The translations under genes were made by a program, and so were the position numbers. The notes under the pieces were generated by a model that worked only from the letters and a program-made list of their open reading frames with translations, did no database searches and was not told the DNA's origin. Positions 15,689 through 20,686 of a DNA stretch of 64,000 bases are shown one piece after another (within the stretch, counting starts at the first letter, position 1; each line of letters starts with the position of its first letter). This DNA is from Candidatus Sulfurimonas marisnigri (lineage in GTDB: Bacteria > Campylobacterota > Campylobacteria > Campylobacterales > Sulfurimonadaceae). The stretch lies in NCBI RefSeq assembly GCF_015265475.1, contig NZ_CP054493.1, positions 372,001-436,000 on the forward strand. The letters run 5' to 3'.

Positions 15689-16548
15689 TGAGGTTACTTG
15701 TTTTTTCACTTTTTTTTACATGTAGCGTTTTTGCTTTAAATATCAATATCTCAAATACTACTATTGCTAATGGGAAAACAGCACTTATGGAGTTTAAAAA
15801 AGAAAAAAATATTTACTATGAAAAAATAGTTGTTGATAAAAAAACATATAAAATATTTGATAACCCGATAAATAGCAAAAAATCTTATGTTTTGCTCCCT
15901 ATTAGCTACTATGAAAAGCCAAGTGAAAAAAAAGTAGAGCTTTTTTACAAAGAAGCAAAAAAAGAAAAAACTAAAGTTCTGTTTTTCAATGTCGAAGATG
16001 GAAAGTATAAAAAAGAGAAAATAAAAGTAGATGGCTCAAAAGTTAGCCTTAGTAAAGAAGATACTAAAAGAGCTGCAAAAGAGTATGCCGAGGCAATGCA
16101 AATATATAAAACAACTAATGAAAAAATCTATATGTCAAAAAGTTTTATAGTACCACTAAGCACAAAAATAACAAGTGATTTTGGAAAAGCAAGAGTGTAT
16201 AATGATTCACTGAAGGGTTACCACAGCGGAACAGACTTTAGAGCAAAGATAGGCACTCCTTTAGTTGCATGTAATGATGGTTTGGTAGTTCTAGCAAAAG
16301 ATAGATTTTACTCTGGCGGTTCTGTTATAATTGACCATGGACAGGGTATTTACTCTTGCTATTACCATATGAGTAAGTTTGATGTTAAAAAAGGTAGTTT
16401 AGTTAAAAAAGGCGAATTATTAGGCCTATCTGGAGATACCGGAAGAGTAACTGGTCCTCATCTTCATTTTAGTTTTAGAGTCGGCGGCGAACAAGTTGAC
16501 CCCCTTCAGTTAATTGAGTTAATAAACAACAATCTATTAAATAAATGA
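15685..16548 (+). CDS. Periplasmic M23 peptidase (LytM-type)
   Basis: This is a 287-residue zinc peptidase expected to cut peptidoglycan cross-links. It has a signal peptide (about 1-17, cut after CSVFA), a beta-rich N-terminal domain (20-130), a linker helix rich in Lys/Glu and an M23 domain (about 155-280). The metal and active-site residues are all present: H180 and D184 in GYHSGTDF, H228 in YYHMS, and H259 and H261 in GPHLHF. It is therefore probably active, unlike the degenerate LytM activators. Campylobacterota use several such enzymes for cell shape, but I cannot match it to a named one. Confidence 0.87.
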
Positions 16549-16562
16549 TAAAATTGCATTTA

Positions 16563-16620
16563 CCGTTATAAAAATATGGAGGATTTCCTTCATTTTGTGA
16601 AACAAAATTAAGGGATAGAT
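16563..16620 (+). promoter_or_regulatory. Leader element, copy 1 (switch-like hairpins)
   Basis: This 58-nt stretch ends just before the TPR gene and is a close match to the one at 19892-19948. Hairpin A pairs GGAGG (16578-16582) with CCTTC (16587-16591). Hairpin B pairs CCTT (16587-16590) plus ATTTTGT (16592-16598) with ACAAAAT (16602-16608) plus AAGG (16610-16613) across a GAA loop, with one mismatch. Hairpin B buries the ribosome-binding site AAGGGA; A and B share the CCTTC strand and cannot form together. A TATAAA at 16567-16572 may be the -10. Confidence 0.55.
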
Positions 16621-16623
16621 ATA

Positions 16624-17220
16624 ATGACAACTTTTCAACTACTGATGCTAGGAGCCTCTGCTTTTTTCGCATTTAAAATTTATGAGCATATTCAAACGCT
16701 TCAAGACCCTGAACCTGCAGATAATAAAGAAACTCCTGAAGAAACAAGAAGTGCCGATGCTTTTTCTGTTTTTTCACCAGAATCGTTAATTCTTAGAGCA
16801 GATGAATCTTTTGAAGAGGGTGATATGCAAAAAGCATTAGCACTGCTTACCGAGGCTAATGCAAAAGCCAAAAGCAATCCAGATGTTCTTTTTAAAATAG
16901 GGTATATTCTTCAACAACTAAATGACAACGATGAAGCATTAAAGTATTACAAAGAAGCTTTAGAATTAGATAAGAAGAATGATTATATTCATAACTCTGT
17001 TGCAAGTATATATAGAGCAAATGGTGAGTTCATATCGGCTAAAATGCACCTAAATGAGTCTTTAGCTATAGATTCTCAAAATGCAATAACGTACTACAAT
17101 TACGGAAATCTTTTAGTAGATATGAATCATCCAGACGAAGCAATAGAGATGTATAAAAGGGCAATAGAGATAAATCCAGATTTTGATGAAGCAAAAGAAG
17201 AGTTGCAAAAACTCTCTTAG
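16624..17220 (+). CDS. Membrane-anchored TPR protein
   Basis: This is a 198-residue protein with an N-terminal membrane anchor (about 3-20) and a short acidic linker. At least three tetratricopeptide repeats follow from about 80 to 198, seen as NPDVLFKIGYILQQLNDNDEALKYYKEAL, a second unit with IYRANGEFISAKMHL and a third with YNYGNLLVDMNHPDEAIEMYKRAIEINP. TPR arrays bind partner proteins; no enzyme function is implied. The start codon sits 8 bases after AAGGGA inside the preceding switch-like leader. NIF3 follows after 9 bases. Confidence 0.85.
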   Translation: MTTFQLLMLGASAFFAFKIYEHIQTLQDPEPADNKETPEETRSADAFSVFSPESLILRADESFEEGDMQKALALLTEANAKAKSNPDVLFKIGYILQQLNDNDEALKYYKEALELDKKNDYIHNSVASIYRANGEFISAKMHLNESLAIDSQNAITYYNYGNLLVDMNHPDEAIEMYKRAIEINPDFDEAKEELQKLS

Positions 17221-17229
17221 GAGAAATAG

Positions 17230-17952
17230 ATGAAAATATCAGAAATATATAACTTACTGGACAACTTATCCCCTTTCGAGATTCAGGAGACTTGGGATAA
17301 TTCAGGCCTTTTAATAGGAGATTTTTCACAAGAGATAAAACAAATTGTTTTAAGTATAGATGTTGATGAAGCTTTGATAGACTCTATGGAAAATAATGCT
17401 CTTTTAATAACACACCATCCTCTTATTTTTGGTGGATTAAAACAGTTGGAATTCAGTAAATATCCAGCGAACCTTATTCAAAAAATGATAAAGAAAAATA
17501 TCTCAAATATAGCGATGCATACAAATTTCGACCAGACCCATCTAAATGAATATGTAGCAACTGAAGTTTTAGGTTATAAAGTTTCTCATAAAGATGGTTT
17601 TGTTGCTTATTTGGATGTAAATGAAGATTTTGATAAATTTGCTACAAAAGTTTCCTCTGCTTTTGGACTTCCACACGCAAAATGTGTAAAAGGAGCAAAC
17701 TTTGTAAGAAGAGCAGCATTAACCACAGGTTCAGGATGCTCTTTAATTAAGTCTATAGACGCTGATTGCTTCTTAACAGGAGATGTGAAATACCATGATG
17801 CTATGGAGGCACAAAGTATAAATTTGTCACTAATTGACATAGGGCATTACGAAAGTGAGCACTTTTTCGCAGAGATTTTACTTAAACATTTGAAAATTTT
17901 AGGTTTAGAAGCTATAATTGCATCATCAAAAAATCCTTTTACTTATATTTAA
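17230..17952 (+). CDS. NIF3-like metal protein (GTP cyclohydrolase 1 type 2 homolog)
   Basis: This is a 240-residue protein of the NIF3/DUF34 family, dinuclear-metal toroids of uncertain function. The metal ligands are visible: HHP in LLITHHPLIFGG near 60, the D in HTNFDQ near 100, and the C-terminal GHYESEHF near 205-212. The N-terminal FEIQETWDNSGLLIG is also typical. In H. pylori and C. jejuni, as I recall, the same gene precedes the FlgZ/HP0958-like zinc ribbon gene and waaA, as it does here. Confidence 0.9.
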   Translation: MKISEIYNLLDNLSPFEIQETWDNSGLLIGDFSQEIKQIVLSIDVDEALIDSMENNALLITHHPLIFGGLKQLEFSKYPANLIQKMIKKNISNIAMHTNFDQTHLNEYVATEVLGYKVSHKDGFVAYLDVNEDFDKFATKVSSAFGLPHAKCVKGANFVRRAALTTGSGCSLIKSIDADCFLTGDVKYHDAMEAQSINLSLIDIGHYESEHFFAEILLKHLKILGLEAIIASSKNPFTYI

Positions 17953-17987
17953 GCAATTGGTACTACTACTTAATCCAAAGGAGATTA

Positions 17988-18701
17988 ATGAACTCACACC
18001 TTAAACAACTGATTGACCTATCACATGTAGATAAAGCTATAGATGCTTTTGAGCCTCAAATTGAAGAGGCTAACTATAAGTTTGAAGCAGCGTTAGCAAA
18101 AAAACAGAGTATTGATTCTGATATTGAAAACCTAACTAATGAGATTCAAGAAGAGCAAGTTAAAAAGCATAAAAATGAACTTCACCTAGCAGAACTTTCT
18201 CAAAAATTAGAGAGTAATTCTAAAAAAAGTGCTGAAATCAAGACAGAACGTGAGATGAAGTCTCTTCAACTAGAAGAAGAGATTGCAAAAGAGCAGGTAA
18301 CTTTTGCAAATGAAGAGATTGCAAGACTTGAAAAAATCATTGAGCTAAAAACTGAGCAGGTAGAAGCTGCAAAAGAGTCTCTATCAGAGCTTGATGCAAG
18401 CTTAGTATCAGTAAAAAAAGAGGTTGATGAGAAGCTTGAGATTATCAATAAATCTCGTCAAGAGGTATTTGTTAAAAAAGAGAAACTCCTTTCTGAAGTT
18501 AATCAAAAAGGTTTAACTTTTTATCAAAAAATCCGCAGATGGGCTAAAAACACTACTGTAGTAACTGTTGAAGAGCAGGCTTGTATGGGTTGTAATATGC
18601 TAATTAATGACAAAATTTACGCAGATGTTATTAAAGCTGAAGAGATTACTACATGTCCACACTGTGGTCGTATTCTTTATATGGGCAATACTGAAGAGTA
18701 G
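17988..18701 (+). CDS. flgZ: FlgZ/HP0958-like coiled-coil zinc ribbon protein
   Basis: This 237-residue protein has a long antiparallel coiled coil (about 20-180, nearly all Glu/Lys/Leu heptads) and a C-terminal C4 zinc ribbon with C199/C202 (CMGC) and C223/C226 (CPHC). It matches the family of H. pylori HP0958, reported to bind sigma-54 (RpoN) and flaA mRNA and to be needed for flagellar assembly. The neighbours NIF3 and waaA support orthology. The gene has a strong AAAGGAGA ribosome-binding site. Flagellar genes fliFGH lie about 35 kb away. Confidence 0.85.
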   Translation: MNSHLKQLIDLSHVDKAIDAFEPQIEEANYKFEAALAKKQSIDSDIENLTNEIQEEQVKKHKNELHLAELSQKLESNSKKSAEIKTEREMKSLQLEEEIAKEQVTFANEEIARLEKIIELKTEQVEAAKESLSELDASLVSVKKEVDEKLEIINKSRQEVFVKKEKLLSEVNQKGLTFYQKIRRWAKNTTVVTVEEQACMGCNMLINDKIYADVIKAEEITTCPHCGRILYMGNTEE

Positions 18702-18703
18702 GC

Positions 18704-19870
18704 TTGAAGCCGTTTACACTTTTATACTTTATCTTAAGTGTGCTGCTCTACGTAGCAGCACTACCACTTTTGGTGTACCTCTCATTTAAACAAAAATACA
18801 AAGAGTCAATTCCCTCTCGTTTTTTTCTTTTCAACAACTCAAGATTTAATAGCAGTGACGGAATTTGGTTCCATGTATGTTCTCTTGGTGAAGCTAGAGC
18901 TCTAAAGCCAATTTTAGAGCTGTTAGATGATAGTGATATAAAAATAACTACCATAACACATACAGGACACTCTGAGGCTAAAAAATATGGTGTAGAAGTC
19001 AGATACTTGCCTTATGAGATGTTTTTGCCTTTTTGGGCTAAGAAACAGAAGGTCTTAGTAGTATTGGAAGCTGAATTTTGGTTTATGCTTTTTACAGTCT
19101 TAAAAGCAAAAGGTGCAAAAATTGTACTTTTAAATGCTCGAATTTCTGAAAAGAGTGCTAAAAAATATTTACAGATGGCTTGGTTTTACAAAAAACTACT
19201 TTCACATGTAGAAATTGTTTATGCTCAAAGTGAAGCTGATAAAAATCGTTTTATTGCTATTGGTGCAAAAAATATTGAAGTTATCGGCAATATTAAACTA
19301 GCTGGTGAGATAATTAAAACAAAAGAGTATAAAAAGCCAAACTGCGAAGTTTTAGTAGCTGGAAGCACACATGACGGTGAAGAGGAGATGGTTCTTAAAT
19401 CATTCGTAGAGTATATAAAGCAGGGCGAAGCAAAACTTATTGTTGTTCCAAGGCACCCTGAGCGATTTGATAGTGTTTATGAGCTTATGAAAGTTTATGC
19501 AAATAGATATGACTTATCCCTTGATCGCTTCTCAAATAACCAAGAGTTTAAAGCTGATATGATATTAGTTGATGCAATGGGCGAGCTAAATAATATTTAT
19601 GCGATAAGTGATATTGCTATTTTAGGTGGGGCATTTAAAGATGATGTAGGTGGACACAATCCGCTAGAGCCAGCTCATTTTGGATGTAAAATAATTACTG
19701 GAAAGAACTTCTTTCATCAAAAGGAGCTTTTTAAGTATGTACATCATGTTCAGTATGTTGAACCAGATGAGATACATAGGGCACTATTGACAAGTAGAGT
19801 ATTACCACCAAGTATGCTTGAGCAAGAGATAAACTTAAGGCCAGTAATAAAGAAAATATTAGAAGTGTAG
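18704..19870 (+). CDS. waaA: 3-deoxy-D-manno-octulosonic acid (Kdo) transferase
   Basis: WaaA (KdtA) adds Kdo to lipid A precursors at the inner membrane. The 388-residue product has an N-terminal membrane anchor (about 5-25) and two Rossmann-like glycosyltransferase halves. Family marks are IWFHVCSLGEARA near 52-64, EAEFWF near 122, GSTHDGEEE near 221 and the donor-site GHNPLEPAHFG near 325. It starts at TTG 18704, two bases after the upstream stop. A perfect palindrome follows the stop. Confidence 0.92.
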   Translation: MKPFTLLYFILSVLLYVAALPLLVYLSFKQKYKESIPSRFFLFNNSRFNSSDGIWFHVCSLGEARALKPILELLDDSDIKITTITHTGHSEAKKYGVEVRYLPYEMFLPFWAKKQKVLVVLEAEFWFMLFTVLKAKGAKIVLLNARISEKSAKKYLQMAWFYKKLLSHVEIVYAQSEADKNRFIAIGAKNIEVIGNIKLAGEIIKTKEYKKPNCEVLVAGSTHDGEEEMVLKSFVEYIKQGEAKLIVVPRHPERFDSVYELMKVYANRYDLSLDRFSNNQEFKADMILVDAMGELNNIYAISDIAILGGAFKDDVGGHNPLEPAHFGCKIITGKNFFHQKELFKYVHHVQYVEPDEIHRALLTSRVLPPSMLEQEINLRPVIKKILEV

Positions 19871-19892
19871 GCAGAGGAACTAGTTCCTCTGC
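19871..19892. terminator. 22-bp perfect palindrome after waaA
   Basis: GCAGAGGAACT is followed directly by its reverse complement AGTTCCTCTGC, starting one base after the waaA stop. The hairpin is GC-richer than its surroundings but has no long U run after it. It probably ends the waaA transcript, leaving the next gene to the leader element that starts immediately afterwards. Confidence 0.6.
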
Positions 19893-19948
19893 CGTTAATA
19901 AATTAATGAAGGCTATCCTTCATTTTATGAAATAAAATTAAGGAGTCA
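19892..19948 (+). promoter_or_regulatory. Leader element, copy 2 (switch-like hairpins)
   Basis: This 57-nt stretch matches copy 1 (16563-16620) from CCGTTA to the start codon. Hairpin A pairs GAAGG (19908-19912) with CCTTC (19917-19921). Hairpin B pairs CCTT plus ATTTTAT (19922-19928) with ATAAAAT (19932-19938) plus AAGG (19940-19943) across the same GAA loop. Relative to copy 1, a G-C pair in stem B is A-T here, and a G-T pair in stem A is A-T, so both helices are kept by paired changes. AAGGAG is the ribosome-binding site 6 bases before the ATG at 19952. Confidence 0.55.
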
Positions 19949-19951
19949 CTT

Positions 19952-20686
19952 ATGGCTACAGAAAAAGCGTATAAAATTTTATCAATTCAAACGGGTATTT
20001 CAAACTCGCAAGCTAAGTCAATGATTGACCGTGGCTTAGTGTATGTTGGGAACAAGAAGGTAATGATAGCTCGTGGAGAGATTGATGAAAAAACTATATT
20101 TAGAGTTGAGAAGATAGAGAAGACAAAACCTATATTTGAAAATAATGACCTTATTGTGGTAGATAAACCAGCACACGTTAATTCAGATGAGATAGAGAGA
20201 CAGTTTAAAGGTGCAAGACTTTTACATAGACTTGATCGTGAAACGAGTGGTGTTTTAATGCTTGTTAAGAATGAAGAGTTTCGTGAAAAAGCAATTCAAG
20301 AGTTTAAAAAAGACAGAGTTTACAAAGAGTATATTGCATGGGTTGAGGGGATTGTAACAGAGCCTATAGTCATAGATAAACCAATCCTTACTCAAAAGAA
20401 AAACAATAAAGCTTATTCAAATGTATCAAGCAAAGGAAAGCCTGCAATAACAGAGATAACACCTGATATAGTAAGTGGAAATAAAACAAAAATTCAGTGT
20501 ATTATTCATCATGGAAGAACACATCAAATTAGAACTCATATGAGATATATAGAACACCCAATAGTTGGTGATGAGCAGTATGGTGGAAGACGAGCAAAAC
20601 GAGTGATGCTTCATGCCTATAAAGTAAAACTTCTAGGAATGGAATTTGTATCACCTGAACCAAAGACATTCATCAACTTTGAGTAG
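19952..20686 (+). CDS. RluA-family RNA pseudouridine synthase
   Basis: This 244-residue enzyme isomerises uridine to pseudouridine in rRNA or tRNA. It has an N-terminal S4 RNA-binding domain (about 1-50) and the catalytic domain with D95 in LLHRLDRETSGVLML, the HHGRTHQIRTHM motif near 190 and DEQYGGRR near 210. Its exact target base is unknown. Translation is probably controlled by the switch-like leader directly upstream. The next gene probably starts at a TTG overlapping its last codons. Confidence 0.88.
   Translation: MATEKAYKILSIQTGISNSQAKSMIDRGLVYVGNKKVMIARGEIDEKTIFRVEKIEKTKPIFENNDLIVVDKPAHVNSDEIERQFKGARLLHRLDRETSGVLMLVKNEEFREKAIQEFKKDRVYKEYIAWVEGIVTEPIVIDKPILTQKKNNKAYSNVSSKGKPAITEITPDIVSGNKTKIQCIIHHGRTHQIRTHMRYIEHPIVGDEQYGGRRAKRVMLHAYKVKLLGMEFVSPEPKTFINFE

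Follow-up and report, generated by a model that had tools for sequence, protein, structure and literature searches.

Two near-identical leaders stand ahead of a TPR-repeat protein gene and an RluA-family pseudouridine synthase gene in the DNA analyzed here, a 64-kb stretch of the closed 2.49-Mb genome of Candidatus Sulfurimonas marisnigri (NZ_CP054493.1, positions 372,001 to 436,000; hereafter, the window). Both are probably worn copies of a dispersed mobile element that is transcribed within mRNA and carries a two-state ribosome-site module. Copies of this element form a family with a common structure and a recurrent position before start codons, are present in some relatives and absent from others at the same locus, and conserve two exclusive folds. 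Each leader can form either hairpin B, which leaves the Shine-Dalgarno sequence free, or hairpin C, which masks it, as is read directly from the sequence. Since both hairpins use the strand CCTTCAT, they are mutually exclusive, and the competition for CCTT pointed out in a preliminary description of this DNA is real. The features of the two copies and the genes 3' of them are listed with the evidence in brackets; P1 and the type-I consensus are described below.

16549..16575, + strand: copy 1, remnant of the 5' domain, AAAATTGCA (5' side of P1) fused to the CCGTTATAAAA tail (sequence against the type-I consensus)
16576..16593, + strand: copy 1 hairpin B, ATGGAGG/CCTTCAT, Shine-Dalgarno left free (sequence, predicted folding)
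16587..16613, + strand: copy 1 hairpin C, Shine-Dalgarno masked through CCTT/AAGG (predicted folding, family covariation)
16610..16614, + strand: copy 1 Shine-Dalgarno AAGGG (sequence)
16624..17220, + strand: TPR-repeat protein gene, 3' of copy 1, ATG at 16624 (TPR_1, 2.9e-22)
19870..19893, + strand: copy 2 hairpin A, GGCAGAGGAA CTAG TTCCTCTGCC (sequence)
19894..19905, + strand: copy 2 tail linking hairpins A and B, GTTAATAAATTA (sequence, consensus tail)
19906..19923, + strand: copy 2 hairpin B, ATGAAGG/CCTTCAT (sequence, predicted folding)
19917..19943, + strand: copy 2 hairpin C, which masks the Shine-Dalgarno (predicted folding, family covariation)
19940..19945, + strand: copy 2 Shine-Dalgarno AAGGAG (sequence)
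19952..20686, + strand: RluA-family pseudouridine synthase gene, 3' of copy 2, ATG at 19952 (TIGR00005, 1.2e-36, under its curated cut-off)

The window copies

Copy 1 lies between a gene ending at 16548 and the TPR gene at 16624. Copy 2 is flanked by a gene ending at 19870, which we take to be of the KDO-transferase type, and the synthase gene at 19952. Hairpin A of copy 2 is GGCAGAGGAACTAGTTCCTCTGCC (19870-19893). The opening G of this hairpin is also the last letter of a GTAG (19867-19870), and the preceding gene terminates at the TAG within it; insertion thus seems to have altered the C-terminus of that gene's product (window 19862-19870). Copy 1 has neither the 3' side of P1 nor P2, P3 and hairpin A, and this remaining part of the 5' domain appears to have been lost by deletion. 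The preliminary description had the shared stretch run for about 60 nt from CCGTTA. The common stretch is there, but not with that boundary: CCGTTA combines the last part of hairpin A with the usual CGTNATAAA tail. The base changes it listed between the copies were read correctly, a G-C pair becoming A-T in the C stem and a G-T pair becoming A-T in the B stem.

Hairpin C of copy 1 reads CCTT c ATTTTGT gaa ACAAAAT t AAGG. Predicted energies are -7.3 (B) and -7.9 (C) kcal/mol for copy 1, and -7.4 (B) and -5.8 (C) kcal/mol for copy 2. Taken alone, both window folds are unremarkable against shuffled sequences (z -1.27 and -1.39), a weakness that would suit a chance likeness of AT-rich hairpins near start codons. 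That explanation is refuted, its probability being vanishingly small: the 27-mer pattern has 2 matches in the window with 0 expected, and 12 matches at 11 places genome-wide with 0 in the reversed control, and none of 500 shuffles reaches the covariation scores given below. What two copies by themselves cannot establish is established by the wider family.

A promoter scan of the leaders gave promoter-like sites at chance level, and copy 2 has a single terminator-like site, which is the minus-strand reading of hairpin B. Antitermination was rejected by reasoning: C arises after the U-run of B, hence too late to act on it.

A family of dispersed copies

The preliminary description had set beforehand, as a refuting test, a search for further copies in this genome and its relatives; such copies were found in both. 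A covariance model, R1, was built from 10 copies and spans hairpins A and C; its alignment, A3, omits window copy 1 and the moaD copy. R1 has 13 matches in this genome at E<1e-5, 10 of which are in the model, and it recovers window copy 1 (16544-16616, 60.5 bits) and two further copies absent from its training set. Thus, many related copies occupy non-homologous places in one genome, as expected of a dispersed repeat. A pattern scan of named genome contigs gave at least 120 stretches, and these contain 119 distinct module instances. Among the matches listed, a start codon follows AAGG by 4-13 nt in 115 of 119, the remaining four being one at a contig end and three before an ATG whose frame fell under the script limit.

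Among 298 Campylobacterota genomes, R1 is strong in 23, representing 6 of 58 genera and mostly the same family. Contigs carrying the module are nearly all titled Sulfurimonas among the matches listed, and B/C with a start codon also occurs outside the genus (L405, L409, L412, L413 and L414; L and G handles denote our loci and genomes). Restriction of B/C to one genus, which we had considered, is overturned by the R1 matches in six genera. A second model, R2, comprises the 5' domain only, without B/C. It matches 35 of 41 genomes of the genus, and 52 of the 298 phylum genomes in 11 of 58 genera, with 17 copies in this genome and up to 60 in G052.

Rfam searches of the window, and of the L231 element at E<=10, gave nothing near a gathering score; the returns were rRNA and tRNA only, and identity with a known RNA family was dismissed. 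Phage records gave 0 matches for one 106-nt query. The module is also seen with a third kind of scaffold at L116, L127, L123 and L153, on contigs titled Helicobacter pylori PMSS1 or Arcobacter MAG (metagenome-assembled genome); the H. pylori titles look misassigned.

Structure and covariation of the 5' domain

The full element is about 130-170 nt, of which the 5' domain makes up about 90 nt and the B/C module the 3' end. Type I has, in order, the palindromic P1 (such as GCACTAGTGC), the pseudoknotted P2, P3 (AGYGTTARCGTAG) with a GUUA loop, and the long hairpin A with the core GGAATTACTTCC. P2 has the form GRGC-stem-GCYGA-stem-AAC, in which GRGC pairs with its own GCY loop. Type II has AGCTTTAGTGCCAYAGCGGCTAGCGTAG in place of P2 and P3, and further scaffolds occur at L116, L127, L153 and L174.

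Alignment A4 retained 40 of 43 candidates. Across these 40 sequences and 26 pairs (pseudoknot included), 89.8% of the type-I cells are paired. There are 210 double-change cells vs 68 in shuffles, and the covariation score is 0.554 vs 0.228 shuffled, a value reached in 0 of 500. The pseudoknot pair 22-32 (GRGC/GCY loop) is A-U in 21 sequences, G-C in 19 and broken in none. For a possible type-II pseudoknot, GCU/AGC, inspection by eye, in A5 only, revealed no compensatory changes. Full leaders fold well, with z from -1.7 to -4.2 in the eight tested. G-U cells exceed A-C cells in hairpin A (21 vs 1), in C (9 vs 3) and in the whole 5' domain (46 vs 25), which favors a constraint acting on a single strand, as expected of RNA, though single-stranded DNA would also be compatible.

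Small hairpins also lie within the hairpins of some copies. A second insert, resembling GTGCCCCTTGAGGGTA, sits in the loops of A, P2 or C at L101, L135, L145, L146, L179, L220 and L004:724-783, and the P3 loop of L293, L297 and L207 is interrupted by a further hairpin (CAGAAAAAAATTTAGTTTTTTTCTAAGTC...).

The two-state module

Because R2 lacks B/C, the sequence 3' of its matches is a fairer sample of the module. For this R2-based test, headed by the term INDEPENDENTLY, 90 matches were used; they represent 75 selected loci rather than whole genomes. A script assigned 47 to B/C with a start codon, 16 to a start without C, 4 to a start farther away, 9 to an opposite-strand stop and 14 to none of these. 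Inspection added L232, L244, L297 and L230, bringing B/C with a start to 51 of 90. Among the nine opposite-strand-stop cases, L275 is a tandem array ending at a start, and the other eight are read as lacking B/C. Altogether, 13 of the 90 have the 5' domain without B/C by inspection. Conversely, B/C stands without the 5' domain in window copy 1 and at L123, L131, L163 and L167.

The module set (n=52, after removal of two false ones) came from a script that required at least 8 of 10 C pairs and is biased toward C. Within it, hairpin B binds at least three positions of CCTT in 49 of 52 modules. B is better than all but 10 of 200 shuffles in 43 of 52, and C in 39 of 52; the mean energies are -7.0 kcal/mol for B and -5.6 kcal/mol for C. 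Covariation in hairpin C was scored in alignment A7, which kept 46 of 53 modules; dropped were L220 and L245 (no real C), L272, L289 and L280 (register off by one), L232 (imperfect) and L273 (a near-duplicate). The 46 rows contain 26 double-change cells vs 4.1 shuffled (0 of 500). Insertions and deletions in the module are also paired, one position shorter in L258 and L287 and one longer in L265 and L252. In a second module form, CCCTTAAATTTATGAAATAAATTAAAGG, hairpin B is another one (GGGAA/TTCCC), and the two folds still compete despite the altered sequence. The term "switch-like" in the preliminary description is accordingly apt, in that copies sampled independently keep the competing folds, even where both sides of a stem change length together or the sequence takes its second form; comparison across the family supports conservation of a putative two-state translation module.

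Filled and empty sites

Orthologous loci that had been fetched were read for both window genes, the partial TPR locus L344 being left out. The TPR gene has the leader at 2 of 29 loci (this genome and G052), and the other 27 have a short gap with a plain Shine-Dalgarno. The synthase gene has it at 5 of 28, and G004 is a further case assigned by coordinates, its R1 match ending just before the gene. Filled and empty orthologous sites thus both exist. At one such pair, G012 L347 (filled) and G005 L356 (empty), the insert sits exactly between the stop codon (TAA) and the Shine-Dalgarno (TTAAGG). L347 has AAAATTAA on both flanks vs the empty L356, which suggests a target duplication, though this AT-rich sequence may belong to the element.

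Other sites are less ordinary. Tandem units occur at L263, L269, L273 and L283. In the 23S rRNA gene of G012, a 188-nt insert made of two inverted copies (L262:1186-1373) replaces 14 nt. G209 has one copy between a tRNA gene and 23S, and the places listed suggest four such sites. Some copies adjoin stop codons in reverse orientation; where both flanking genes run the same way, about 40 copies point forward and 6 in reverse. By eye, the ends of the element (AAAA-P1 and AATTAAGG) are not inverted copies of each other. Integron attC sites were set aside, the neighbors being core genes.

The 23S gene in the window has a short hairpin at the position matching the G012 insert. In two species, a copy lies directly 5' of a tRNA gene, tRNA-Trp by eye (L280:1197-1287 and L261:1238-1328).

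Target genes

Targets in this genome include GlnD-, MoeA-, MoaD-, HypB-, NusA- and PhoU-type proteins, ribosomal protein L9, DUF6394, a Na/H exchanger, glycyl-tRNA synthetase alpha, LemA, an amidase, a Fer2-fold protein and, by eye, DnaK; they have no common pathway. Across genomes, 113 target proteins fall into 60 clusters, 34 of them singletons. A shared pathway or ligand, as would mark riboswitch targets, is not seen in these 60 clusters and their diverse names. The scaffold ahead of a given gene can differ between species, type I here and type II there (dnaK, rplS and others, by eye), a pattern that speaks for repeated gain or exchange. At L009:1333-1494, a proC-like gene (by eye) behind a copy is open for just 54 codons, a possible frameshift or pseudogene.

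What the element may do

We favor a reading in which the element enters the short gap from the upstream stop codon to the Shine-Dalgarno of the next gene, so that insertion would swap the host gene's ribosome-binding site for its own. As hairpin B is transcribed first and is somewhat more stable on average, the default state would be open and the gene would stay translated; conditions or factors that opened B would then let C close the site. Several results weigh against this. The energies of B and C are similar and the minimum free energy (MFE) state varies (B in 36, C in 12 and mixed in 4 of the 52 modules); in both window copies it is the C fold. Pairing of the P2 3' strand (GGAAACC) with the linker GGUUUCC, hinted at by the MFE fold of L228, was discarded for want of coevolution: 1974 of 2000 permutations did at least as well as the element's own pairs, and no link between domain and switch was found. 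No Y1/RAYT-type transposase (PF01797) was matched in this genome (G000), and no R2 match was found around 10 PF01797 genes of relatives; RAYT mobilization was rejected on these grounds. Moreover, the leader recurs at some genes in many species (dnaK in 8 and rplS in 6 of the 113; names by eye), which is not what purely random insertion would give.

That recurrence, seen by eye for dnaK, rplS, nusA and ilvC, some with type I or type II by species, is a point in favor of a signal-responsive regulon in which the 5' domain would sense a ligand, protein or RNA and set B/C for co-regulated genes. So are a complex pseudoknotted domain immediately 5' of a bistable ribosome-site module and the conservation of both folds. 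We nevertheless consider such a regulon unlikely: the targets are functionally scattered, presence at orthologues is patchy, domain and switch each occur without the other, and the two show no coevolution. The preliminary description had taken the spread to unrelated genes to suggest a regulon, which is not borne out. With most relatives lacking the leader, targets this diverse and sites that include tandem, reverse, tRNA and 23S positions, the spread better fits a mobile, patchy repeat than a conserved regulon. It is conceivable, if doubtful, that the two ideas combine in a translational switch that is itself transposable: a pseudoknotted leader, spread phylum-wide, would move between genes, insert between stop and start codon and place every host gene under one common open/closed control of its ribosome site, so that regulons would be built by insertion instead of through site-by-site evolution. 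A selfish repeat with no regulation, in which C would serve mobility or be a mere element end and B would spare the host gene from C, we rate no higher than that. The mobile behavior, the slightly greater average stability of B and the dispersal of the 5' domain to places where no gene start follows all suit it. However, B/C is tied to start codons (before them in 51 of 90, or in tandem arrays ending at one), unlike a part needed for movement, and C is maintained through compensatory change rather than lost. Less likely still is a leader that stabilizes or insulates mRNA, its hairpins blocking 5' exonuclease or polar effects while B/C merely shapes the ribosome site. Several copies do precede typically abundant proteins (L9 and NusA; DnaK, L19 and L7/L12 by eye), others lie in a tuf-rplK-rplL-rpoB type cluster of G052 (names by eye), and the full leaders fold well, yet two exclusive folds at the ribosome site would not be needed for such a role. 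The favored reading remains a worn mobile element with its own two-state ribosome site.

Relation to known systems

Translational riboswitch platforms open or mask the Shine-Dalgarno with exclusive hairpins 3' of a structured domain. The present element likewise has exclusive Shine-Dalgarno hairpins below a conserved structured domain; in contrast, its targets are unrelated, its distribution is mobile and patchy, and it has no Rfam match. Intervening sequences of 23S rRNA are inserts within 23S genes. A copy pair forms such an insert in one relative, whereas the element is mostly a leader repeat, found inside 23S in just one genome checked.

According to PMC3049150, BOX, together with RUP and SPRITE, belongs to the Streptococcus pneumoniae repeats, which are <200 bp as a rule, modular, dispersed and like miniature inverted-repeat transposable elements (MITEs; for a review, see PMC10969869). 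BOX is described there as transcribed, strongly folded and able to affect expression of neighboring genes, and in one case BOX and T-box riboswitches make up a composite RNA. Compared by description only, our element is likewise short, modular, dispersed and strongly folded, but it abuts the start codon in one orientation, with the Shine-Dalgarno inside a two-state module. The GTAG repetitive extragenic palindromes (REPs) are, in PMC3733652, palindromic dispersed repeats of 20-40 bp with GTAG beside a hairpin, and occur also in epsilon-proteobacteria (Sulfurovum); REPs were counted in S. gotlandica in a table of PMC12306157. The consensus of our element also has GTAG ahead of hairpin A. There, however, GTAG is part of the paired P3 in a larger pseudoknotted unit, and the genome has no RAYT-type transposase. 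No description of the element was found in the literature searched on Sulfurimonas and relatives, subscription journals being outside its coverage; one of the searches put general riboswitch papers at the top and is a weak test.

Dispersed bacterial repeats are usually regarded as DNA clutter or terminators. This one combines a conserved pseudoknot with a ribosome-binding site of its own, set in a two-state hairpin, and is placed to take charge of how the following gene is translated. Should the switch prove responsive to some signal, mobile elements would have a direct and testable way of building post-transcriptional control; if it is unresponsive, it would be an example of a repeat that enters tightly packed operons without killing expression. 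The element also alters how leaders, 23S inserts and intergenic spacers are annotated across Campylobacterota. Finally, the stop-to-start gap of the synthase gene at L357 (G056) contains a different long inverted repeat (TTTCTTGCAAAACTCA...TGAGTTTTGCAAGAAG), perhaps of another repeat family.

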